Positions 2,684-49,113 of a stretch of DNA of 64,000 bases are shown piece after piece. Source of the DNA: Flavobacterium sp. CBA20B-1 (GTDB lineage Bacteria > Bacteroidota > Bacteroidia > Flavobacteriales > Flavobacteriaceae); the NCBI RefSeq assembly GCF_028473145.1, contig NZ_CP092370.1:186001-250000 (forward strand), read 5' to 3'. Numbering within the stretch: position 1 is the stretch's first letter; the number at the start of each line of letters is the position of its first letter. A program made the position numbers and the translations under genes. Below the pieces are notes generated by a model. That model searched no databases, had not been told where the DNA came from, and saw nothing but the letters and a program-made list of their open reading frames with translations.

Positions 2684-3400
2684 AAGATCAAAGAAACTTT
2701 TTCTTCTTTTAGCTTTAAAAGAAGAAAACCGAAATGCATCAATTACGAACAATGGAGAATGAGATTCGAAAGAAATCTACCACGCTGTTTCAACATAAAA
2801 AACATAATAAAATTATTGAATTTTTAAATGAAACCAAATAGCCTAATTAGGACAATCTAAGCGCCATTGGCAAGAAAACGAAGGTTGCCTCGCTGCATAA
2901 CCTGTCTCGCTTAAGCGGAAGCGTAATCACATCGGCGAGCGCAGCAATGGTTTCAATGGGATAGCCGTAAAAGCGAACAGGTAACCGTTTGCGAGCCACG
3001 GCAAGATTAAAGAAACTTTTTCTTCTTTTAGCTTTAAAAGAAGAAAACCGAAATGCATCAATTATAAACAATGGAGAATGAGATTCGAAAGAAATCTACC
3101 ACGTTGTTAAACATAAAAAACAGAATAAAATTATTGAATTTTTAAATCAAACCAAATAGCCTAATAAGGACAATCTAAGCGCCATTGGCAAGAAAACGAA
3201 CGTTGCCTCGCTGCATAACCTGTCTCGCTTAAGCGGAAGCGTAATCACATCGGCGAGCGTAGCGATGGTTTCGATGAAATAGCTTTAAAAGCGAAAAGGT
3301 AACCGTTTGTGAGCCACGGCAAGATCAAAGAAACTTTTGCTTCTTTTAGTTTTAAAAGAAGAAAAAACCGAAATGCATCAATTACTAACAATGGAGAATG
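2684..3400. repeat. Tandem repeat, about 318-bp unit in 2.3 copies
   Basis: The sequence AAGAT(C/T)AAAGAAACTTTT begins at 2684, 3003 and 3321, so the period is 319 and then 318 bases. Units 1 and 2 are nearly identical across their length. They share a GAAATGCATCAATTA stretch, a CCTGTCTCGCTTAAGCGGAAGCG stretch and an ACATCGGCGAGCG stretch. Unit 3 is partial. Short open frames inside it (2847-3071, 3245-3463) follow the repeat and have no protein-like features. Related text recurs at 7.5-9.4 kb and, diverged, at 19.2-19.45 kb. Confidence 0.8.
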
Positions 3401-4618: not shown

Positions 4619-5635
4619 GTGGATTCAAGTTTTAAATGCAACTCGTCTATTTTCGTTCATTTTTAGAGCAAAAACTTCGTTAGGCGTTTTGAAACCAAAT
4701 CTTTTTCGTGGTCTGTTGTTTAAAATATTAATAACTCTATTAATTTGATCTTGGGTTATCGATTCAAAGTTAGAACTTTTGGGAAAATATTGTCTTACTA
4801 AACCATTTAAATTTTCATTAGCACCTCTTTCCCAACTATGATATGGCTTTGCAAAAAAGTAATCAATAGCGAGCTTTTCTGAGAGTTGCTCGTGGTTGGC
4901 AAATTCCTTTCCATTGTCTGATGTAATGGTGTATAATAAAGGTTTCCAGTCTTTTAAAAGTTCTATTGTTTTGGTTTCTACGGCTTTTGCTTCTTTGCTG
5001 TCAATTTTTCCCATAAAAAGTAATCCTGTGGCACGGTCGTTAATAGTTAATAGTGCACCTTTATGATCTTTACCAATAACTAAATCTATTTCTAGATCTC
5101 CAAATCGTTCTTTTTTCTCCACAATTTGCGGTCGTTTGCTGATATCTACCCTATTGGCTATCAATCCTCTATTGTCTTTTGAACTAGCTCTTTTGCGGTA
5201 TTTTTTACCTTTGGTTCTCAAATGTTTGTATAGGTTGCCACCGGCTCGCTTATCTTTCCAGATATACTGATAAATACGTTCGTGAGAAACCATTTTTTTT
5301 CCTTCTAAAACGGCTCTTCCTACCATTTGCTCCGGACTGAAATCTTGCTCTAAATACTGTTTTACATTGCTTATAACCTCTGGAGTGAATGTAAGTTTTT
5401 TAGGCTTGATTTGATGCCTTTTTTGGGCTTTTCGATGTGCTAAACTGGCTTTATAAATTCCGTTTCTGCCATCAGAATTTCTCTTGATTTCTCTAGAAAC
5501 AACCGATTTGTCTCTCCCGATATAGTCGGCAATTTCAATAATTCGTTTACCTAAGCTGTGGTAAGTTTCAATTTTGTATCTTTGTTCAAGCGTTAAATGT
5601 CCCATCTTTATTTTGTAGTGTCGGAACCACAAAGT
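4619..5635 (-). mobile_element. IS30-family insertion sequence
   Basis: The element contains one full transposase gene on the minus strand. The left end, starting near 4619 (GTGGATTCAAGTTTTAAATG), resembles the terminal repeat of IS30 itself (TGTAGATTCAA...). The right end, read inward on the minus strand from about 5633 (GTGGTTCCGACACTACAAAA), is an imperfect partner. Exact ends and target duplication could not be fixed by eye. The transposase is intact, so the copy may be active. Confidence 0.65.
4625..5605 (-). CDS. IS30-family transposase
   Basis: This 326-residue protein starts at the ATG at 5605 (MGHLTLEQRYKIETY); the 20-codon extension upstream runs into the palindrome and is unlikely to be translated. 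The N-terminal HTH (about residues 1-45, with GRDKSVVSREIKRN) is typical of IS30. The DDE core is visible: DLEIDLVIG (Asp, about residue 190), ITSDNGKEF (Asp, about 247) and the E in ERGANENLNGLVRQYFPK (about 283). Length and motif order are normal for the family, with no frameshift. Confidence 0.95.
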   Translation of the reverse strand: MGHLTLEQRYKIETYHSLGKRIIEIADYIGRDKSVVSREIKRNSDGRNGIYKASLAHRKAQKRHQIKPKKLTFTPEVISNVKQYLEQDFSPEQMVGRAVLEGKKMVSHERIYQYIWKDKRAGGNLYKHLRTKGKKYRKRASSKDNRGLIANRVDISKRPQIVEKKERFGDLEIDLVIGKDHKGALLTINDRATGLLFMGKIDSKEAKAVETKTIELLKDWKPLLYTITSDNGKEFANHEQLSEKLAIDYFFAKPYHSWERGANENLNGLVRQYFPKSSNFESITQDQINRVINILNNRPRKRFGFKTPNEVFALKMNENRRVAFKT

Positions 5636-5651
5636 AAGGTGTTTTTTCGCC

Positions 5652-5699
5652 AACAGGGGGAACATTTTAGCCCCGCGGGGCTAAAATGTTCCCCCTGTT
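5652..5699. other. Perfect 48-bp palindrome next to the IS30 element
   Basis: Positions 5652-5699 read identically on both strands, with the centre between 5675 and 5676 (CCCCGCGGGG). On the plus strand the structure is followed by a run of T, so it would work as a very strong terminator for rightward transcription. It lies about 20 bases outside the transposase-proximal IS end. It may be the insertion target, an IS end-end junction remnant or a pre-existing terminator. Confidence 0.8.
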
Positions 5700-5796
5700 T
5701 TTTTTATGCGGTTGCATTTATTAGTTGAATCTAAGTTATTAAAAAATAGAGTTATATAATTAGCGAAAAAATTGATATTACACTAAATCATTTAAT

Positions 5797-6057
5797 TTAA
5801 ATTTTATCAAGCTCTTTATAATACTTTTCAAAATCAAAATCTATATCTAGTAATTCTTTAGGCATTTTTTGTAATCCAATTGCCAGTTCTAAAATTGTTG
5901 AAAGTCTAATATTTATTTCTCCTTTTTCAATTTTACTTATATTACTATGATCGACAGAACATCTCTGTGCTAATTGTCGGTAACTTAAAGCTTTTTCGAT
6001 TCTTAATTGTTCTATTTTTTTTCCAAATAAAATCTGGAAATTATCTCTATCCATCAT
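5797..6057 (-). CDS. XRE-family helix-turn-helix regulator
   Basis: This 86-residue protein could also start at the second Met (6054). An XRE/Cro-type HTH covers about residues 13-68: IEQLRIEKALSYRQLAQRC (helices 1-2), VDHSNISKIEKGE (recognition helix), then STILELAIGL. A short acidic tail follows. It faces a strong rightward promoter (6147-6177) across an interval with two perfect dyads (6104-6123, 6154-6174). Autoregulation, and repression of the structured RNA beyond, is the natural inference. No toxin or partner protein is adjacent. Confidence 0.85.
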   Translation of the reverse strand: MMDRDNFQILFGKKIEQLRIEKALSYRQLAQRCSVDHSNISKIEKGEINIRLSTILELAIGLQKMPKELLDIDFDFEKYYKELDKI

Positions 6058-6103
6058 CTTAAAAAATTAATTAAGACAATTTCTTCATAATTGTAAAAAA
6101 AAA

Positions 6104-6123
6104 TGTAGGTTTTTTAACCTACA
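6104..6123. promoter_or_regulatory. Perfect dyad upstream of the XRE gene
   Basis: Arms TGTAGGTT (6104-6111) and AACCTACA (6116-6123) enclose four T. The dyad lies 47 bases upstream of the regulator's start codon and 24 bases left of the rightward -33 element. It is a candidate operator for the XRE protein. Confidence 0.5.
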
Positions 6124-6146
6124 AACAAATTTTTTATTTATATTTG

Positions 6147-6177
6147 TTGATATAATTACACTGAACGTGTAATTTTG
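6147..6177 (+). promoter_or_regulatory. Bacteroidetes-type promoter overlapped by a dyad
   Basis: A -33 element TTG (6147-6149) and a -7 element TAATTTTG (6170-6177) are separated by 20 bases and match the TTTG-N19/20-TAnnTTTG consensus. A perfect dyad, AATTACAC (6154-6161) and GTGTAATT (6167-6174), covers the spacer and the -7 box, the classic place for a repressor. Transcription should start near 6183, where there is no long open frame but a highly structured sequence. Confidence 0.65.
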
Positions 6178-6182
6178 CGATA

Positions 6183-6430
6183 CTTTATTAAAAATATTTA
6201 AAGCTATTGCTTAGAATCTCGCTTTTGAAAACTGGTAATTTTTAGCGTACGAGATGATAAGTAGATTAGCTCACGACCATGGCGTGAGCTCTCTTATCTG
6301 TACGTAAGGTATACCAGTACCTCAAAAGCAGATTTGTTGAGTTTCACGCCTTTTTATATGCTTTTTACTCAACCTTTTGCCGGTTATGGTGCTGTGTACA
6401 GGCACTAATATTTAAAAGATATTATTTTTT
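6183..6430 (+). ncRNA. Candidate structured small RNA, rod-shaped
   Basis: Between the promoter and a terminator lies a nested hairpin. The paired segments are GCTTTTGA (6221-6228) with TCAAAAGC (6322-6329), ACTGGTA (6231-6237) with TACCAGT (6312-6318), CGTAC (6246-6250) with GTACG (6300-6304), GATAAG (6256-6261) with CTTATC (6293-6298), and AGCTCACG (6268-6275) with CGTGAGCT (6283-6290). A second stem pairs GTTGAGT (6336-6342) with ACTCAAC (6367-6373). The only start-to-stop frame noticed is 16 codons (6358-6408). The rod recalls 6S-type RNA (a flavobacterial family, 6S-Flavo, is known), but the assignment is inference. The element at 37088-37250 is similar. Confidence 0.5.
6406..6430 (+). 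terminator. Terminator of the candidate small RNA
   Basis: Arms TAATAT (6406-6411) and ATATTA (6419-6424), extended by T-A and G-U pairs around an AAA loop, are followed directly by six T. This is a short rho-independent-type terminator about 225 bases after the predicted start of transcription. Confidence 0.5.
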
Positions 6431-7569
6431 GTGGTCGTTTAACCTTTAAACTTAAATTTCATAGTTCATTTTGTATATGGTAAATCAAACCGTAAGGTTC
6501 ACGGCGTCCAAGCTGTAAAAATAATTGTGGTAGTAAAGAAGAAAAAATCGAAATATTAGCCACGAACAATGGAGATTTAGAATCGACATAGGTCTAGCGA
6601 CCTATTATATCACAAAAGTTTACGCTTCTCCTCTTAATCTCAAATGTTCAAGATGACAAAGCTAGACGCAAAATATAATGCGTGCTGCATGGTTTGTCTC
6701 GCTTTATCGGAAGTGCAGCATAATCAAGTGAATTGTGTTATTAGATTTTTAATTAAAAACAAATATAGACTTTAAACCAGCGGTATTAAGATTTTGGCGA
6801 GTGTCAAAAAGGTGAAGTTGGCGTTAAGCACATCGGGTCGCAAAGCGATCGTTCCGATGCGCTAGACAACAAACCAAATTTTGACCGCCTAAAAGCTTGA
6901 CCGCAATAAAAGCACTTTGCTTCTTTGGTGCGTCAAAGAAGAAATATTGATTTTATTGAAACCAGATTTTCTAATCAAGAATAATTCAAATCGCATTTTA
7001 GTCTAAAAGTGCAAGAAAAAAGAAGTCGATTTTAAGTCATTTTACCAAAAGTGAAAACCGAAAAATTTTCGGTTTACCAACAGCGAGGATACTAAATAGA
7101 TACTGTATGGATAAAGCATGGATAGTGCATAAAACACATTTTCGGAAAAAACGTTCAAAAACAGAAATTTATTCTAAATTTTTCAATTAAGTCAGAAAAT
7201 ACAGAAAATTTAAAATGGCAAAATCGTGGTTTTATAAAGTAAAAACAGTTAAAGATAATAAATTAAAAACAAACGGCGAAAACACCATTTGCAAAAATGC
7301 TTTTTACATGATAAAATACAATTGTTCAACTATTCAGTTTTGCATAAAATCACAGATGGACTTTTAGCTGACGGTATTAAGTTTTGACCGCTAAAAGCTT
7401 GACCGCGATAAAAGCACTTTGCTTCTTTGGTGCGATCAAAGAAGAAGAGTATTTGATTTAACTATTTTTTTTATAGAGTTGACACTCGCTGAAAAAATAA
7501 TGTCGATTTCAAATCCGGGTTTGTAAACAATAGGTTCTTGATTGAAAACTGAATAGGAGTATAAACTAA
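6431..7569. other. Non-coding region with diverged repeat fragments
   Basis: No gene is supported. The segment TTGACCGCCTAAAAGCTTGACCGC, followed by a CTTTGCTTCTTTGGTGCG motif, occurs at about 6884-6944 and again at about 7385-7436. Both are related to the core of the larger repeats that begin at 7571. The GCTGCATGGTTTGTCTCGCTTTATCGGAAG text at about 6690 also belongs to that family. This looks like decayed copies of the downstream duplications. Confidence 0.5.
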
Positions 7570-7570
7570 G

Positions 7571-9360
7571 CGGTATGAGGTTTTGATCGAGTGTCGAAAC
7601 GCTGCATGAAGCGAAAGCAGATCGGGGTGCAAAGCACCGTTTCGATCTGGTAGCTTCAAAAGTGAATTTCGACCGATTAAAAGATCGCCGCAATAAAAGA
7701 CTTTTGGTACTTTTTGTCTCTAAAAAGTACAGAAAAAACCGAAATGCATCTAGCAAGAACAATGGAGATTCAGAATCGAAAGAGATTTTTCACTCCATTG
7801 CATGCCGTTCAAGATGACAAACTAAACGCAAGTCAGGATGCGATGTTGCATGCTTGTCTCGCTTTAGCGGAAGTGCAGCATGACAGATCAGATAGAACTT
7901 CTGGATTTTTGATTGAAAACCCAGCTTGAATGTAACCTACGCGGTATGAGGTTTTGATCGAGTGTCGAAACGCTGCATGAAGCGAAAGCAGATCGGGGTG
8001 CAAAGCACCGTTTCGATCTGGTAGCTTCAAAAGTGAATTTCGACCGATTAAAAGATCGCCGCAATAAAAGACTTTTGGTACTTTTTGTCTCTAAAAAGTA
8101 CAGAAAAAACCGAAATGCATCTAGCAAGAACAATGGAGATTCAGAATCGAAAGAGATCTTTCACTCCATTGCATGCCGTTCAAGATGACAAACTAAACGC
8201 AAAATAGGATGCGATGCTGCACTTCGACTGAGCTCAGTGACCAGCGCAGCATGACAGTATGGATAGAACTATTCGATTTTTGATTGAAAACGGAATAACT
8301 TTTTTAAAAAACAAATTATGAATTAAAACAAACTAAAAATTGCGAGCTATACGCTAACAGTTAAAATAAATCCTTGCAACTAAAAACAAATCATAATACA
8401 AAAAAGTAGTTTGCTAAGGTAGGAGCAAAGCACATAATCACTTTTCAAACCATAATAGATAAATATTAATATAGTTAGTTAGTTGAATGAAGTAGTTAAA
8501 ATCCGAAAGGCGGTTATGTGCCGAAGCTCTTAGTTATTTTCTGTGGAGACACAAAACCGGATGCGATGCTGCATGCTTGTCTCGCTTTAGCGGAAGTGCA
8601 GCATGACAGATCAGATAGAACTTCTGGATTTTTGATTGAAAACCCAGCTTGAATGTAACCTACGCGGTATGAGGTTTTGATCGAGCGTCGAAACACTTAA
8701 TGAAGCGTAAACAGATTAGATGGTCGGTGAGTTTATCGAACCGCGATCTGGTAGCTTCAAAAGTGAATTTCGACCGATTAAAAGATCGCCGCAATAAAAG
8801 ACTTTTGGTACTTTTTGTCTCTAAAAAGTACAGAAAAAATCGAAATGCATCTAGCAAGAACAATGGAGATTCAGAATCGAAAGAGATCTTTCACTCCATT
8901 GCATGCCGTTCAAGATGACAAACTATACGTAAAGTAGGATGCGATGTTGCACTTCGACTGAGCTCAGTGACCAGCGCAGCATGACAGTATGGATAGAACT
9001 ATTCGATTTTTGATTGAAAAACGGAATAACTTTTTTAAAAACAAATTATGAATTAAAACAAACTAAAAATCGCTAGCTGTAAGCTAACAGTTAAAATAAA
9101 TCCTTGCAACTAAAAACAAATCATAATACAAAAAAGTAGTTTGCTAAGGTAGGAGCAAAGCACATAATCACTTTTCAAACCATAATAGATAAATATTAAT
9201 ATAGTTAGTTAGTTGAATGAAGTAGTTAAAATCCGAAAGGCGGTTATGTGCCGAAGCTCTTAGTTATTTTCTGTGGAGACACAAAACCAGATGCGATGCT
9301 ACATGCTTGTCTCGCTTTAGCGGAAGTGCAGCATGACAGATCGGATAGAGCTATTAACAC
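7571..9360. repeat. Nested tandem duplications (about 371 and 723-730 bp units)
   Basis: The sequence CGGTATGAGGTTTTGATCGAG occurs at 7571, 7942 and 8665. The first interval is 371 bp; the second is 723 bp and rises to 730 bp further along because of a 7-base indel. The long unit contains the 371-bp type core plus an extra block (CTTCGACTGAGCTCAGTGACC, then AAGTAGTTTGCTAAGGTAGG) present at about 8222-8640 and 8951-9330. Open frames inside (for example 7714-7929) are reproduced with the repeats and are interrupted differently in each copy, so they are not genes. Confidence 0.85.
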
Positions 9361-9737: not shown

Positions 9738-12734
9738 ATGAAAAATTTTACTTTTGCAGCACTTGCTGTACCCCTTATGTGGGTGTTGCTCTTACTACTT
9801 TTTTTTAACAGCAACAAATTACACGCGCAAGAAACAATAGTTTTAAGCGGCGTGGTGAAAAGTGTCGACGGTATGCCCCTTGAAGGCGTAACCGTGTGGC
9901 AGAACGATACCGATAATGGTACCCAAACCAATCAAGAAGGATGGTATTCTTTAGAAGTTCAACGTGATTCGTATGTTAGTTTTGAATACCTTGGTTTCAA
10001 AACCCAGACCATTCGCGTCACAGGCAAGGTGCTAAACCTTACACTTTTAGCAGACGACGATACCTTAGAAGAGTTGGTGATCAATGCCGGTTACTATAAC
10101 GTAAAAGACAAAGAACGCACAGGCAGTATAGCTAAAATTACAAGTAAAGAAATCAGTCAGCAACCAATTGCCAACCCACTGGCCGCTATGCAAGGGCGTA
10201 TGGCAGGGGTGAATATTACGCAAAGTAGCGGTACCCCTGGCGGTGGCTTCGATATACAGATAAGGGGGCGCAACAGTTTACGCACCGAGGGGAATGCGCC
10301 CCTGTATATCGTTGATGGTGTGCCCTATGCCGGGCAGTCAAACGCTGACCAAGAATTGTCCTCAGGTATCATGCCTTTAGGGAATGTGAGCCCATTAAAC
10401 AGCATAAACCCCAACGATATCGAAAGCATCGAAGTGTTGAAAGATGCCGATGCTACAGCTATTTACGGGTCGCGTGGTTCCAATGGAGTAGTGCTGATCA
10501 CAACCAAAAAAGGTACTACCGACCGGACTACCTTTTCCTTGCAGTCTCACACTGCCGTAAGCACGGTTTCTAAATATATGGATTTAATGCACACACAGCA
10601 GTACCTGCAAATGCGCCGTGATGCCTTTGCCAATAGTGGTATCGCTGAATATCCAGAAAATGCGTACGATATAAACGGCACCTGGGATCAGCATCGCTAC
10701 ACCGATTGGCAAAAAGAATTTATCGGCGGGAAAGCGCTATCACAAAACACACAGTTCTCCGTGGGTGGGGGATCCGGACAAACCAGCTACCTCTTTAGTG
10801 CCACCCATAGGAAAGATGGTACGGTATATCCCGGAGATTTCGGGTACAGGCGTACCAACTTTATGCTGAATGTAAACCACCAGTCCAAAGACAGCAGGTT
10901 TAATTTTCAGGGAAGTGTGCAAAAGAACGACCAGGACAACAAGCTCATGGCAACCGATCTAACAACAGCGGTTTTTCTACCACCCAATGCGCCAGCTTTG
11001 TACGATGAGCAAGGAACTATCAATTGGGAAAACAACACCTTTGAAAACCCGTTGGCAAAATTAAACGCGCAATACCTTTCCGAAACATCCGATCTAATCG
11101 CACAATTGAATCTGTCTTACGAAGTTGCAAAGAATATAAGGTTCAGCCTGCTTGGTGGCGCTACCCGCACGCAGGGTAAAGAGATTCGTACCATGCCTTC
11201 TACCATGATGAATCCCTCATTGCAATACACCAGTGCCAACTCTTCTGTAAATGTGGTTACGCTTCACAAAGAAAGCTGGATTGTAGAACCTAAGCTAAAT
11301 TATTCGTACAGTAATGATAATGCACGGTTAGAAGTATTATTGGGAAGTACCTTCGAAGAACGTTCACAAGATGTATTGGGATTAAGTGGAAGCAATTTCT
11401 TATCAAATGATTTCATTAGGAACATTCAAAGTGCCGCTACCCAACGTGTTACTAAAGATGCAGAAACACGCTACAGATACCATGCGCTATTTGCCCGAGT
11501 AAACTATACACATAAAGACAAGTACATCCTAAACGCTACCGCCCGCAGGGATGGTTCCAGCAGGTTTGGCTCCAACAAAAAGTGGGGCAACTTCGGTGCT
11601 TTGGGCGCCGCATGGCTCTTCAGCCGGGAAAAGGCATTGGAATATAATTCATGGCTAAGTTTTGGAAAACTACGTGCAAGCTACGGTATTGCAGGTAATG
11701 ACCTCATTGGCGACTACCAGTACCTAAACACATTAGGTTTGGGCTTGTACACCTATGATGGCAAGGTAACCTTAGAACCGTTACGATTATACAATCCCGA
11801 TTTTAGTTGGGAAACCAATAAAAAATTAGAAGCAGCACTGGAACTTGAGTTCTTTAACGGCAAGTTGGCTGCTTCGGCTGCATGGTACCGAAACCGATCC
11901 TCGAATCAGCTAGTAGGTATCCCATTGCCTGGAACAACAGGTTTTCCAAGCGTACAGGCAAACTTGGGTGCAACCGTAGAAAACCGGGGCTGGGAATTCA
12001 CCCTACGCAGCAGCAACCTGCAAAAAGAGAAATGGTCTTGGAACACCCGTTTGAACCTTACCATACCCCGAAACGAACTCATTGCTTTTCCAAATTTAGA
12101 GCAATCAACCTATGCCAACCAATACCAAATCGGTAAACCGGTTACCATCCGTAAAATGTACCGCTACACGGGCATCAACCCAGAAACGGGGCTTTTTGAA
12201 TTTGAAGATACCAACAACGATGGTAAAATCGATTTGAACGACCGCACGCTAGCAATGGATGTGGGGGTGCGTTTTTACGGTGGCATTCACAATTCCTTTC
12301 AATACAAAAACTGGAGTCTCGATTTCTTGTTTCAGTTTGTAAAGCAAAAAGCGTTTTCACCCGATTTCCGCAGCAATTTATTGGGTGAAATGGAAAATAA
12401 AAACGTACGTGCTGGCAGTTATTTTGGTTCGGGTAGCGAAATGCCTTCCTACCAACAGCCATCGTTAACAGCAAATACCGATGCATACCGGGCATACCAG
12501 AATTTTGCCAACAGCGATCAGGTAGTTATAGATGGCTCCTACATCCGTTTGAAATCCCTACAGCTCCAATACGCGTGGAAAATTCCCCAATTGGCAGGTA
12601 TTTCCTTTAACACGTTTTTACAGGGACAGAACCTGGTAACCTTTACAAAGTTCTGGGGCAGCGATCCCGAAACCGCTTTGGGGTTTCTTCCAGCGCTCAG
12701 AACGATATCCTTTGGAGTTACCATTAACTTTTAA
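9738..12734 (+). CDS. SusC/RagA-type TonB-linked outer membrane receptor
   Basis: This 998-residue outer-membrane transporter imports oligomers captured by its SusD partner, powered by TonB. A signal peptide covers about residues 1-31, ending LHAQ. A carboxypeptidase-like beta-sandwich follows (about 35-110, LSGVVKSVDGMPLEGVTVW). The plug domain (about 130-255) shows QIRGRNSLR, PLYIVDGVPY and SIEVLKDADATAIYGSRG, all hallmarks of SusC proteins. The rest is a beta-barrel ending in FGVTINF with a terminal Phe. It is followed after 10 bases by the susD-like gene. Its substrate is not shown, but the peptidase downstream points to peptides. Confidence 0.97.
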   Translation: MKNFTFAALAVPLMWVLLLLLFFNSNKLHAQETIVLSGVVKSVDGMPLEGVTVWQNDTDNGTQTNQEGWYSLEVQRDSYVSFEYLGFKTQTIRVTGKVLNLTLLADDDTLEELVINAGYYNVKDKERTGSIAKITSKEISQQPIANPLAAMQGRMAGVNITQSSGTPGGGFDIQIRGRNSLRTEGNAPLYIVDGVPYAGQSNADQELSSGIMPLGNVSPLNSINPNDIESIEVLKDADATAIYGSRGSNGVVLITTKKGTTDRTTFSLQSHTAVSTVSKYMDLMHTQQYLQMRRDAFANSGIAEYPENAYDINGTWDQHRYTDWQKEFIGGKALSQNTQFSVGGGSGQTSYLFSATHRKDGTVYPGDFGYRRTNFMLNVNHQSKDSRFNFQGSVQKNDQDNKLMATDLTTAVFLPPNAPALYDEQGTINWENNTFENPLAKLNAQYLSETSDLIAQLNLSYEVAKNIRFSLLGGATRTQGKEIRTMPSTMMNPSLQYTSANSSVNVVTLHKESWIVEPKLNYSYSNDNARLEVLLGSTFEERSQDVLGLSGSNFLSNDFIRNIQSAATQRVTKDAETRYRYHALFARVNYTHKDKYILNATARRDGSSRFGSNKKWGNFGALGAAWLFSREKALEYNSWLSFGKLRASYGIAGNDLIGDYQYLNTLGLGLYTYDGKVTLEPLRLYNPDFSWETNKKLEAALELEFFNGKLAASAAWYRNRSSNQLVGIPLPGTTGFPSVQANLGATVENRGWEFTLRSSNLQKEKWSWNTRLNLTIPRNELIAFPNLEQSTYANQYQIGKPVTIRKMYRYTGINPETGLFEFEDTNNDGKIDLNDRTLAMDVGVRFYGGIHNSFQYKNWSLDFLFQFVKQKAFSPDFRSNLLGEMENKNVRAGSYFGSGSEMPSYQQPSLTANTDAYRAYQNFANSDQVVIDGSYIRLKSLQLQYAWKIPQLAGISFNTFLQGQNLVTFTKFWGSDPETALGFLPALRTISFGVTINF

Positions 12735-12744
12735 ATATTAAATC

Positions 12745-14112
12745 ATGAAAAAATTAACGATATATATGGTATCCTGCGGCATAATGCTTCTCACCGCAGC
12801 CTGCAACGACTTTTTAGAAGTGGAAGTACCAAAACAAATGGTGGATCAAACCAAAACGTTCAACGACGACCGTACCGCCGAAGCGGCACTGCATCATGCC
12901 TATGTTTTACTCACAGAGAACGGGTTTTTATCTGGAAATGCCGGTGCTGCACCCGTATTATTGGGTTGTTACACCGATGAGTTGGAAGTAACCTCACCTG
13001 CTTTTCCCGATTACATGAATTTTTACAACGGTGCCGTATTGGCAAATAATTCAAGCGTAAGTGCCCTGTGGAACCAAACCTATGCACAGATTTATGCTGT
13101 AAACAATATTTTGGAAGGTATCAAACAGTCCACAGGAATTACAGAATCTGTCAAAACACAACTACAAGGCGAAGCCTTAGCTATTAGGGGAATTTTACAT
13201 TTTTATTTGGCACAAACTTTTGCAGACGTACCTTATGTGACATCGGTTGACTACAAGGTAAACCAAAAAATAGGCAAGTTGTCGGTCAATGCGGTAATGG
13301 AACGTGCCCTTACCGATTTAAAAGATGCCGAAGAATTATTGTTGCCAACCTATCCCACAGCAGAACGGGTACGCATCAACCAATCTGTCGTACAAGCTTT
13401 TATGGCGCGAATATATCTCTATATGGAAAACTGGCCAATGGCTCAGCAGTATGCAGAAGCTCTTATAAACAATGCAGACTATACACTCTCTGCTATAAAC
13501 AGCCTTTTTCTCAAAGAAAGTAAAAGTGCTATTTGGCAATTGAAACCAACCATTAACGGTATGAATACCTACGAAGCACTTACCTATACTTTTTTTGCTG
13601 TTCCTGCGCCAAACATTAAATTAAGTACGTCGCTTTTAGAAATGTTTGAACCCGGTGACCTGCGAAAAGAACACTGGGTAAAGTTTATTGGCAACGACCA
13701 GCAGAACGCGCACAACTACAAATACAAAAAAATGGGTTTTAGCAGTCCTGCGGTGGAATATTCCCTAGTGATGCGTATAGAAGAAATGTACTTGATTGCC
13801 GCTGAAGCAACAGCCCATTTACAAGATTGGGACGCATGCAACGGTTATTTAAACCAGATAAGAAACCAAGCGGGGCTAGAAGCTGTTGAAATCCAATCGG
13901 TAAATCAAGCAGTGGATGCCATTCTTCAGGAAAGACGGGTAGCATTCTTTTGTGAATTTGGTCACCGCTTTTACGATTTAAAACGCACAGACCGCTTGAT
14001 GGATTTACAGGCTGTTAAACCCAATTGGAAACCCTACGCAAGCGTATGGCCACTGCCTGAAAACGAATTATTATTAAACCCCAACCTGCTGCCTCAGAAC
14101 ACCGGCTATTAA
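12745..14112 (+). CDS. SusD/RagB family nutrient-binding lipoprotein
   Basis: This 455-residue protein has a lipoprotein signal with the lipidated cysteine at residue 20 (LLTAAC). It is therefore anchored in the outer membrane, where it caps the SusC barrel. TPR-like helices fill the middle (EALAIRGILHFYLAQTFADVPYV is the usual SusD block; about residues 145-170). The C-terminus, WPLPENELLLNPNLLPQNTGY-like, is the family's closing signature with P-x-x-E and N-x-G-Y. It lies 10 bases after the receptor and 11 bases before the peptidase, so all three are one operon. Confidence 0.96.
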   Translation: MKKLTIYMVSCGIMLLTAACNDFLEVEVPKQMVDQTKTFNDDRTAEAALHHAYVLLTENGFLSGNAGAAPVLLGCYTDELEVTSPAFPDYMNFYNGAVLANNSSVSALWNQTYAQIYAVNNILEGIKQSTGITESVKTQLQGEALAIRGILHFYLAQTFADVPYVTSVDYKVNQKIGKLSVNAVMERALTDLKDAEELLLPTYPTAERVRINQSVVQAFMARIYLYMENWPMAQQYAEALINNADYTLSAINSLFLKESKSAIWQLKPTINGMNTYEALTYTFFAVPAPNIKLSTSLLEMFEPGDLRKEHWVKFIGNDQQNAHNYKYKKMGFSSPAVEYSLVMRIEEMYLIAAEATAHLQDWDACNGYLNQIRNQAGLEAVEIQSVNQAVDAILQERRVAFFCEFGHRFYDLKRTDRLMDLQAVKPNWKPYASVWPLPENELLLNPNLLPQNTGY

Positions 14113-36606: not shown

Positions 36607-37032
36607 CTACTGTTTTACATAAGTGAAATGCTCTATTATAGATTCATCGAAACCGTTTGCATTCGTCCATATAATTTCTGATGAAGATTTTTGTTTAAAA
36701 GAAAAAATAGAAGAGATACCCATTGCAGTGTATTTAATACTGTATGTTGTATTACTTATATCTTGACTAATCGAGGAATCTGAATTTTGAACACCCATAG
36801 ATGCCTTCCAACAAAATTCGTTTAGTATAACAAGTTGACAAAAATCATCGGATGTAAATCTATAACCTACATTGTCAGTTTCTCCCTTTTTGATCCAAGT
36901 ACCTTGAATCCAAGCAGGGGGAGTGATTTTTGAAGAAGAGTTGTTGTTAGAATTGTTAGATGATGAATCATCAGATGTTCCGCAAGAAAGTGTTAATAAC
37001 ACCGAGCTTGCCATAAGTAGTAATTTTTTCAT
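36607..37032 (-). CDS. Lipoprotein of unknown function
   Basis: This 141-residue protein has a lipobox with cysteine at residue 17 (LLTLSCGTSDD), followed by a Ser/Asn-rich linker. The mature domain has IQGTWIKKGETDNVGYRF (about residues 43-60), which recalls small lipocalin-like lipoproteins of Bacteroidetes that begin with a G-x-W motif. It heads the five-gene minus-strand set. Confidence 0.75.
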   Translation of the reverse strand: MKKLLLMASSVLLTLSCGTSDDSSSNNSNNNSSSKITPPAWIQGTWIKKGETDNVGYRFTSDDFCQLVILNEFCWKASMGVQNSDSSISQDISNTTYSIKYTAMGISSIFSFKQKSSSEIIWTNANGFDESIIEHFTYVKQ

Positions 37033-37087
37033 TATAGGTTTAAATTATGTTTCATTCAGTCCCAAAATGAAAGTTTATAAAATAACA

Positions 37088-37250
37088 AAGCGTGGGACAA
37101 AACCTTATTTATTCTTACAGAGGCTCTGGTAAGCCATAGAGATATAAATAGGTAAGCCCACGCCGAAGCGTGAGCGTTCACCCATCTATTCTACATCTCT
37201 TTTTTTGAATTTACCAGATTCCTGTAAGGTAGAAATAGAAGCTAACGCTT
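37088..37250. ncRNA. Candidate rod-shaped RNA or hairpin element
   Basis: The gap between divergent genes folds into a long nested structure. The pairs are AAGCGT (37088-37093) with ACGCTT (37245-37250), CTTACAG (37114-37120) with CTGTAAG (37222-37228), CTGGTAA (37126-37132) with TTACCAG (37211-37217), AGAGAT (37138-37143) with ATCTCT (37195-37200), AATAGGT (37147-37153) with ATCTATT (37184-37190), and CACGC (37159-37163) with GCGTG (37168-37172), closed by a CGAA loop. A closing stem, a wide open bubble and a long arm recall 6S RNA. It shares blocks with the reverse complement of 6221-6329. No good promoter was found, so strand and expression are unknown. Confidence 0.4.
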
Positions 37251-37362
37251 AATTTTTTTCGATATGTTTATAAAGCAAATATTAGCTAAAAAAAAATTAA
37301 AATCCAAATTTATTTTTAACAAATTTTAAAAAATCATCTGTTAAAACAATTCAAATAAATTC

Positions 37363-47140: not shown

Positions 47141-49113
47141 GTGTGCCCTGCATATGCAGGACACACCCCGAAAGCTTTTCAAATAGTTCAAAAATACAAA
47201 TTTAGTTTTATGAACCTAGTTTTCGGGGGTGTTATTTTTCCAGAGGGTGCAAGTCCCTTACGGGCGGGACTAACAATCCGAACCGTTAGCACGTGACAAG
47301 GTGGTTTACCGTGAGGTATGCACTAAAGGAAGTCAAACGGCAAAAATCTGTACCGACGAACAAAAAGTACATATGAGGCATAGCAATAAGGATGAGTATC
47401 CACAGCAATACGAAGTCCAAAACAGTGTTCTGAACATGTTATTAAATCAGATTATTGTTATGTAGATGTACCGGTGATAGATGGAAGGGAAAAGCATTTA
47501 CCAGGAGGGCAGAGCGTAAAGAAAATGTCCGGTGGACATTTTTAGCGAACGAGCCAGCAGGCGGGCGGGCAAAAGATTACGAGTTAATCACAAAGAGAAG
47601 TCAGCAGAGGTCATAGTACTTGAAGGCAAACGAGGTGCGAATAGATACCGCATAGGACTCACAATTAAGGAAGGACCGAACGTAAAGAGGTTTTTAATGA
47701 GTAACGGAACGCATAGTAGCCCTACTTAACGAAAACAGGTTAAAACAAGCTAAAATGATAACAAGAGTAGTACAACCGTTTAATCTTCAAAAACCATTGG
47801 AACACGTTATTGCCAATAAAGGCAGTGCGGGTGTTGATGGTGTTTCTATCCGAGAACTCCGCAAGGTGTTTTCTGAAAAGAAACTACAACTGATTGAAGA
47901 CATCAAACACGGAAACTACCAAGTACACCCCATTTTAGGTATCGAAATTCCGAAAGGAAACGGAAACACCCGATTATTGGGTGTTCCCACCACTACAGAA
48001 CGTGTGTTGCAACAAGCCGTAGCACAAACCCTTGCACCACTTTTTGAACCCGAATTTAGTAATTATAGTTTTGGATTTAGACCCCAGAAGAATGCCCGAC
48101 AAGCTGTTGGACAATCTAGGGAATACATCCATTCAGGGCTCAATCACATTGTTGATATCGACCTGAAAAACTTCTTCGACGAAGTTGACCATTGTTTAGT
48201 ACTGAATTTAATTTATCAGAAAGTAAAATGCAAAGCTACCCTGCAACTCATACGTAAATGGCTCAGAGCACCGATTAAAATCAACGGAAAGCTACAAAAG
48301 AGAAGAAAAGGCGTTCCGCAAGGAAGTCCCTTAAGTCCGCTATTGTCGAACATTTTACTGCATCAATTGGATAAGGAAATGACCCGAAGAGGACACAAAT
48401 TTGTACGTTATGCGGATGATTTTAGTATCTATTGCAAAAGCCACAATCAAGCCAAAGCTACGAGAGTGGTAATTGAGAAGTTCCTGAAAAACAAGCTCAA
48501 ATTAACTATAAATGAAGAAAAGAGCGGTATTAGAAAACCAATCAACTTCACGATTTTAGGTTTTGGGTTTGTGCCTACGTACAAAAAAGGAAGCAAGAAT
48601 CAATACCAACTCATCGTTTCGGAAAAGGCATGGAAGAAACTAAAAGAGCGACTCAAAGCCATAACCCGAAAAACTACACCAGCCACGTTTGAAGAACGTA
48701 TTACCAAGATAAAAAAAGTGCAACGAGGATGGTTGAACTATTTTCAAGGCACGAGTATTTTGGGCAAATTACGAGATTTAGATGGTTGGTTACGTAACCG
48801 ACTGCGCTACTGCATTTGGCATCATTGGAAGAAACCTGAACGAAAGCGGAAAAACCTGATTCGATTAGGAGTTGACCAAGACCACGCCTATGCTTGGAGC
48901 AGAACTCGGAAAGGAGGTTGGGCAATTGCACAAAGTCCTATTTTAGGAACAACCATTACTTTACAACGCTTGAAGAAAAGGGGGTATATTTCCTTAACCG
49001 AATTATATTTAGAGCTTAATCCATCTCTTTGCGAACCGCCGAGTACGTGACCCGTACGCTCGGTGGTGTGAGAGGCGCACTCCGTCAGTTATTGGCGGAG
49101 CCGTCTACTCGAT
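47141..49113 (+). mobile_element. Group II intron, class C-like
   Basis: The 5' end GTGTGCCCTGCAT matches the start of class C introns such as that of Oceanobacillus (GTGTGCCCGGCAT). Domain I-type text follows (GGTGCAAGTCCC, CCGTTAGC, AAAGGAAGTCAAACGGCAA). The RT gene is in domain IV. Domain V is the hairpin at about 49035-49066 (ACCGCCGAG with CTCGGTGGT), followed by domain VI (CTCCGTCA with TGGCGGAG) and the end CTACTCGAT. The ends are predicted, with an error of a few bases. Confidence 0.8.
47755..49050 (+). CDS. ltrA: Group II intron reverse transcriptase/maturase
   Basis: This 431-residue protein is encoded inside the intron. RT motifs run from SAGVDGVSIRELRK (about residues 23-36) through DLKNFFDEVDH (catalytic Asp, about 142-152), PQGSPLSPLLSN and RYADD (Y219-D222). 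The GIIM maturase domain covers about residues 290-360 (KIKKVQRGWLNYFQ). The C-terminus has no H-N-H endonuclease, in line with class C introns that use hairpin targets. All catalytic residues are intact. Confidence 0.95.
   Translation: MITRVVQPFNLQKPLEHVIANKGSAGVDGVSIRELRKVFSEKKLQLIEDIKHGNYQVHPILGIEIPKGNGNTRLLGVPTTTERVLQQAVAQTLAPLFEPEFSNYSFGFRPQKNARQAVGQSREYIHSGLNHIVDIDLKNFFDEVDHCLVLNLIYQKVKCKATLQLIRKWLRAPIKINGKLQKRRKGVPQGSPLSPLLSNILLHQLDKEMTRRGHKFVRYADDFSIYCKSHNQAKATRVVIEKFLKNKLKLTINEEKSGIRKPINFTILGFGFVPTYKKGSKNQYQLIVSEKAWKKLKERLKAITRKTTPATFEERITKIKKVQRGWLNYFQGTSILGKLRDLDGWLRNRLRYCIWHHWKKPERKRKNLIRLGVDQDHAYAWSRTRKGGWAIAQSPILGTTITLQRLKKRGYISLTELYLELNPSLCEPPST

Follow-up and report, generated by a model that had tools for sequence, protein, structure and literature searches.

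A pseudoknotted RNA family of Bacteroidota, a candidate 5′ leader with a promoter facing an XRE-type regulator gene

Introduction

Transcription-attenuating riboswitches and leader RNAs bring together a promoter, a structured and pseudoknotted domain, helices that share strands, a U-run and a gene in cis. Dyad operators also precede defence genes in restriction-modification operons, where they occur with small HTH controller proteins. For systems that combine a sigma factor with a nuclease-dead Cas12f (dCas12f), a mechanism has reportedly been described by Hoffmann et al. A study on Flavobacterium psychrophilum describes 64 structured 5′ transcribed regions, some of which are conserved beyond the species without Rfam hits (PMC9723704).

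Here we analyze a locus in 64,000 nucleotides of Flavobacterium sp. CBA20B-1 (NZ_CP092370.1, positions 186,001 to 250,000), a stretch that we call the window and whose first letter is position 1. A preliminary description of its sequence had proposed a structured RNA with its own promoter opposite an XRE regulator gene, and this arrangement was confirmed together with the placement of its features. Our main reading, to which we give a probability of about 0.6, is that the RNA would be a conserved pseudoknotted 5′ leader or attenuator of the downstream gene or operon, with a promoter for which control by the divergent XRE protein is predicted.

The RNA element and its fold

The conserved core of the RNA occupies 6182..6354 on the plus strand and matches positions 1-170 of our covariance model R1 with 180.3 bits, the window copy being itself one of the eight aligned sequences from which R1 was built (37 pairs, 12 with two-sided changes). 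The stretch 6183-6430 folds with -73.1 kcal/mol (z -5.8), a value equalled by none of 200 shuffles. Because the reverse strand folds equally (z -6.3), energy alone cannot name the strand; it is settled by comparison, that is, by the promoter, the G-U pairs and the homologues. Open frames that begin with ATG in 6182-6430 reach at most 17 codons, the next longest having 16.

Homology places a series of plus-strand helices in the core: P2 (6222-6228/6322-6328), P3 (6231-6237/6312-6318), P4 (6246-6249/6301-6305), P5 (6256-6262/6292-6298) and the apical hairpin P6 (6269-6275/6283-6289), in which 100% of cells are paired. A pseudoknot, PK1 (6217-6221/6250-6254), was placed in the same way and has compensatory changes at two of its five pairs. 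The alternative helix T1 (6281-6291/6339-6350) is followed by a T-run, and its 3′ arm is overlapped by the hairpin P7 (6336-6342/6367-6373; GTTGAGT/ACTCAAC), which has counterparts in distant relatives. Beyond these, the plus strand holds a further hairpin at 6389-6405 and an A/T-rich hairpin with T6 at 6407-6430. The terminator proposed earlier for 6406-6430 is a weak candidate.

Promoter, dyads, core and T1 are all intact in the window copy. Inspection by eye finds a closing helix of GCTTAGAA with TTCTAAGC in many relatives; the 3′ strand of this GCTTAGAA/TTCTAAGC helix was not seen by eye in the window copy.

A phylum-spanning family with exclusive helices

When loci fetched with the XRE protein were searched by blastn with 6060-6440, Flavobacterium species showed the RNA upstream of XRE homologues in divergent orientation, and a Rhizosphaericola mali plasmid carried it without an annotated XRE gene alongside. 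Within the genus, 154 of 299 genomes have R1 matches (E ≤0.001), with up to 6 copies each; within the order, 99 of 395 genomes and 19 of 108 genera do, with up to 7 copies. Both tallies pool close copies with the distant type. A wider model, R2, made from 47 sequences including a second copy from the window, finds the RNA in 50 of 345 genomes and 25 of 154 genera of the phylum, some of them outside the class. The Infernal/Rfam comparison suggested in the preliminary description, 6S-Flavo included, assigned the RNA in the tested loci to no family of Rfam 15 at gathering or relaxed thresholds; two weak matches that overlap the RNA at relaxed thresholds lie far below their cut-offs. A literature search, judged by title or start of abstract, found no paper on the RNA.

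Do these sequences share a structure? In an alignment of 67 matches, 62 of them distinct, the 41 pairs (PK1 among them) are paired in 97.8% of cases, and two-sided changes number 231 against 58.2 in shuffles (sd 8.2), with a covariation score of 0.278 against 0.097; this alignment was fitted to a nested-pair model and hence is biased towards nested pairs, PK1 being absent from the model. In 47 more diverse members, whose alignment was likewise fitted to nested pairs and leans towards them, the score of the nested structure is 0.677 against 0.193, and two-sided changes number 415 against 109. The nested rod that had been drawn from the single sequence is thereby borne out, its pairing kept through compensatory changes. 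That a structured-RNA family of Bacteroidota exists is close to certain and, judged from the sequences collected here, it is large, phylum-spanning and without an Rfam match.

T1, which is absent from the models, pairs the 3′ arm of P6 with CACGCC immediately before the U-run. Its cells are paired in 98.9% of cases, with 9 two-sided changes against 1.4 in shuffles. The wide set has 311 of 321 cells paired, a count without a control, and a best-helix script, likewise without a control, returned a T1-like helix in 31 of 31 distant copies, that of L167 in another register. By eye, the pairing persists through replacement of its letters, as in GCGTGGG/CCCACGC, GGACGC/GCGTCC and CGGGCG/CGCCCG. P7 uses the same 3′ strand as T1 and is clear by script in many distant copies, not in all. 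P6 and T1 have a strand in common and both are conserved. Since P6, T1 and P7 share strands, they are mutually exclusive, which is the layout of a switch, and the conservation of these exclusive helices supports a probable switch role.

Genes downstream of the RNA

Which genes follow the RNA? In 67 rows, a SusC gene lies within 1.7 kb downstream in 34, a sigma factor gene followed by a Cas12f-like gene in 17, a gene for a protein that we call p190 in 12 and something else in four, namely in the two window copies, L136 and the plasmid; some of the 67 rows show the same locus twice. Nine rows were set aside because they came from the window, the plasmid or duplicate-like loci. Each of the remaining 58 near loci has its first following gene of at least 120 aa in the orientation of the RNA, at a distance of 234-1435 nt from the start of the RNA. 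For most SusC-class loci this distance is at least 388 nt, which makes a separate promoter possible there.

The distant members, 29 weaker matches of 53-80 bits, present a tighter arrangement. Twenty-six of the 29 have a same-strand ORF of 60 aa or more whose start lies 154-348 nt downstream of that of the RNA, and when the window's second copy is added, the gap from RNA end to ORF is at most 71 nt in 25 of 30 loci, which leaves little space for another promoter. Nineteen of these 30 loci have a -7 box in the 70 nt upstream of the RNA, compared with 1.66 in shuffles. By eye, no divergent XRE gene was seen directly upstream of the 29 matches among the two nearest ORFs; many of the genes behind these RNAs look secreted by their N terminus, and one is DNA methylase-like. 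Of 21 further copies, mostly from the R2 search of the phylum, 19 have the next ORF in their own orientation. In L268, one of these loci, a divergent gene looks HTH-like by eye.

These positions carry the leader reading: an ORF stands close behind the RNA in distant loci, and the next ORF is co-directional. Positional evidence of this kind supports a predicted leader role well. The preliminary description had seen no protein gene behind the RNA and had read the RNA itself as the apparent product, without a protein partner. The absence of a gene holds for 3.3 kb in the window but not for the family, and the second claim finds no support, as both near and distant loci place the RNA as a 5′ leader. 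Against the leader reading stand the functional mixture of the downstream genes, the distances in the SusC class and in the window, and the form of T1, which would have to arise as a pseudoknot around P2-P5, an unusual terminator.

Some of the downstream genes form recurring groups. p190 is a family of proteins of about 175-200 aa without a Pfam match; it has 220 relatives at E ≤0.001, and among the 120 listed, those named by their source are hypothetical or uncharacterized. In Chryseobacterium-type genomes, its genes follow the RNA repeatedly, at sites scattered over the chromosome (L123, L124, L130, L134, L137 and others). A comparison of p190 with the genes behind distant copies gave a best profile E of 0.014 and no convincing homology. 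In L263, L277 and L279, a 73-95-aa protein with the motif LKNGxIxxFxP starts 212-218 nt after the RNA start, and in L263 and L277 a response-regulator-like ORF comes next (both by eye). In L276, RNA copies lie in tandem at 3014-3191 and 5381-5555 (+); each precedes its own member of a pair of paralogous genes by about 250 nt.

The window copy and its surroundings

In the window, the likely original downstream gene, a SusC/RagA-type TonB-dependent receptor (9738..12734, +; TIGR04056, 674 bits), is followed by a SusD-type lipoprotein (12745..14112, +; SusD_RagB and SusD-like_3). By eye, this SusC gene has a hairpin before its ATG like that before RNA-linked SusC genes. The pair at 9738-14112 sits 3.3 kb beyond the RNA, with repeats in between. 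These repeats, at 6666-9352, are tandem and dispersed, belong to families of 300, 168, 88 and 74 nt and have related copies elsewhere in the genome. Because SusC/SusD lies this far off behind repeats, the window copy may have been cut off from its gene and may now yield mainly a short RNA.

The genome contains two more, divergent copies. One is in the window at 37085..37267 on the minus strand (65.6 bits, E 1.2e-11), with a 141-aa lipoprotein-like ORF (36607..37032, -) that starts 235 nt after the start of this copy; the other, L261, is at C1:889249-889428. Both are followed at 232-235 nt by a lipoprotein-like ORF of 139-141 aa, the two ORFs being paralogues, and neither copy has an XRE neighbour. 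Elsewhere in the window, group II intron domains were found at 47305-47676 (+), D1-D4-3 with 110.9 bits and D1-D4-1 with 40.7 bits.

Promoter and divergent regulator

The RNA is preceded by a Bacteroidota-type promoter (6143..6177, +; TTTG ... TAATTTTG) with the -7 box TAATTTTG at 6170-6177, the upstream TTTG at 6143-6146 and TTG at 6147-6149. Of 62 homologous loci, 58 carry a -7 box TAnnTTTG no more than 20 nt ahead of the RNA, where mononucleotide shuffles give 1.45; in 43 of the 62 it sits exactly at -12. Thirty-eight loci have an additional TTTG 14-22 nt upstream (0.45 in shuffles), a group outside which the window copy falls with its spacing of 23. According to PMC9723704, this box sits at -12 to -5 from the start, which would put the transcript start near the first base of the model, 6182. 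The proposed element is thus more than a chance assembly, with a recurring promoter box and covarying pairs.

Divergent from the RNA lies the gene of an 86-aa XRE-type regulator (5797..6057, -), in which Pfam HTH_3 is above its cut-off (E 2.7e-9); this domain check concerns the window protein, while the regulators of other loci were assigned by eye or by clustering. A divergent minus-strand ORF occupies the place of the XRE gene in 57 of 59 related loci, eight rows having been dropped beforehand. The exceptions are L090, where an HTH-like gene lies just beyond the limits of the script, and L132, which has none. The proteins at this place form several clusters, their HTH being judged by eye. 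No relatives of the XRE protein were found in phage records, and viral contigs gave one short match.

The two perfect dyads reported earlier between the XRE gene and the RNA are there and look operator-like. Dyad 1, a putative XRE operator, is at 6104..6123 with 8-bp arms (TGTAGGTT-TTTT-AACCTACA); dyad 2, also with 8-bp arms (AATTACAC-TGAAC-GTGTAATT), covers the -7 box at 6154..6174, and a second dyad over the -7 box is found in many related loci as well. The dyad between gene and promoter varies with the XRE cluster: by eye, ACACATA.TATGTGT is present in 7 of 10 loci of one cluster, AGGACTA.TAGTCCT in 2 of 5 of another and TGTAATCCA.TGGATTACA in 2 of 4 of a third. Taken singly, the top dyad goes beyond chance at 5% in just 16 of 61 loci. 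The agreement between dyad motif and XRE family is a stronger point than the significance of dyads at single loci. The dyads support the prediction that the RNA promoter is under the control of the divergent XRE protein.

Defence genes on the XRE side

The genes behind XRE vary between loci, and no constant protein partner appears. When 83 proteins encoded there (up to three same-strand genes per locus) were compared with PADLOC and Pfam, several defence families were recognized; the matches listed include N6 methylases (5), SIR2 (3), AriA-like proteins (3), GajA (2), and GmrSD, AbiEii and AAA_13 (1 each), among others. With one gene per locus and a PADLOC threshold of 1e-10, 5 of 20 genes behind XRE matched against 0 of 10 on the other side, and the remaining 15 of the 20 had no match at this threshold; the sample is small, 20 of 58 loci with 10 of 12 genes as control. 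These counts are suggestive of an association of defence genes with the XRE side, and the apparent link between defence gene and leader is likewise one of association.

In L105, a sigma-dCas12f locus, an Argonaute-like protein is encoded behind the HTH gene (pAgo profile, E 3.8e-18). In the window, the place behind XRE is taken by a transposase gene with HTH_38 above its cut-off, which we take to be of the IS30 family. A long GC-rich inverted repeat (GGGGGAACATTTTAGCCCCGCGGGGCTAAAATGTTCCCCC) lies just outside this gene at 5650-5705.

Proposed mechanism and alternatives

How could such a leader work? RNA polymerase would start near 6182, and as long as P6 holds the GCGTG strand, the transcript would run on. 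If the downstream CACGCC takes this strand instead, forming T1 with the U-run, transcription would stop or the leader would change shape. P7 would compete for the 3′ strand of T1, and a ligand or protein might tip the balance between the helices. XRE would act as a repressor of the operon to which it belongs, which in some relatives contains defence genes, and would also tune the RNA promoter; such control would couple the defence state to the expression of the downstream operon, in the window SusC/SusD. A wider scenario, which we put forward tentatively and hold to be rather doubtful, is that XRE-controlled defence cassettes of Flavobacteriia captured a phylum-wide switch RNA with its own ligand; a single promoter region would then link phage defence with SusC/SusD or with an RNA-guided sigma-dCas12f regulator.

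The RNA could also be an independent, trans-acting sRNA under XRE control, with the downstream genes as targets or mere neighbours. Its own promoter, the U-run after T1, the 3.3 kb without a gene in the window and the 388-1435 nt that separate many SusC-class RNAs from the gene behind them would all fit. The co-directional gene in all 58 near loci, the close ORF in 26 of 29 distant ones and the short gap in 25 of 30, however, make this reading unlikely. Still less credence is due to an anti-phage or RNA-antitoxin function of the RNA itself, with XRE as its regulator: defence-type genes behind XRE and a patchy, multi-copy distribution point that way, but the XRE gene has no constant protein partner, and distant members precede apparently ordinary secreted-protein genes without a divergent XRE. 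The earlier suggestion of an anti-phage role finds some backing in the genes behind XRE and none in the RNA. For an RNA antitoxin no positive evidence was found, and this candidate was rejected, as no constant toxin gene stands beside the RNA and the genes behind XRE vary.

In dCas12f loci, the RNA or its 3′ part might be the guide of dCas12f, working with the adjacent sigma factor. The RNA is just upstream of the sigma gene in 30 of 52 dCas12f loci (8 of the 52 being gene fragments), and the protein matches PDB 9n9c, ‘Nuclease-deactivated Cas12f’, at E 1.1e-197. But dCas12f is found in 3 of 299 genomes of the genus against 154 of 299 for the RNA, it was not found in the window's genome, and some dCas12f loci are without an R1 match; its frequency is 12 of 299 genomes in the window's family and 25 of 120 in a second family. 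As dCas12f is far rarer than the RNA, which is present in 30 of its 52 loci, the RNA is not simply its guide. A word search between leader and downstream gene, a weak test that scanned the stretch up to the gene, found a shared 11-nt word in 9 of 58 rows, by eye mostly simple sequence and no clear guide-target pair. We regard the guide reading as highly improbable and, because co-occurrence fails, reject it as a general function for most copies; it may apply to the subset next to sigma-dCas12f.

The 6S-like RNA of the preliminary description, which would bind RNA polymerase, agrees with the rod-like fold and is otherwise contradicted: several RNA copies occur per genome, none has an Rfam 6S match, and 6S-Flavo is a separate locus of the same genome (C1:2910577-2910683, 92 bits, above cut-off). 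It was rejected and has next to no probability. A single-strand DNA element, such as an origin or recombination site, was set aside because G-U pairs and promoter are conserved. The 5′ leader or attenuator remains our preferred reading.

Comparison with known systems

Bacteroidota are abundant in gut, soil and water, and the RNA would add to them a large structured-RNA family absent from Rfam 15. It would become testable how they switch SusC/SusD operons and sigma-dCas12f regulators, and whether such switching is coordinated with the defence genes nearby. A search for the ligand or protein partner could start directly from the conserved core and the clear exchange helices.

With 6S-Flavo (RF01685), the RNA shares a long rod in Flavobacteria, from a different locus. 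The main-text description of the F. psychrophilum 5′ elements mentions no XRE-, SusC- or sigma-linked RNA family, and the two sets may overlap (PMC9723704). Sigma-dCas12f systems resemble the present loci in the gene pair that follows the RNA in 17 of 67 rows; they differ in that the window's genome yielded no such pair and the RNA is far more widespread in the genus. The controller proteins of restriction-modification operons have in common with our loci an XRE-type regulator, dyad operators and defence genes, whereas here a structured RNA lies on the far side of the operator. The likeness to attenuating riboswitches and leaders extends to the promoter, the pseudoknotted domain, the strand-sharing helices, the U-run and the gene in cis. 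In contrast to them, the RNA is without an Rfam match and has mixed genes behind it, and one of its subfamilies shares its promoter region with a divergent XRE gene.
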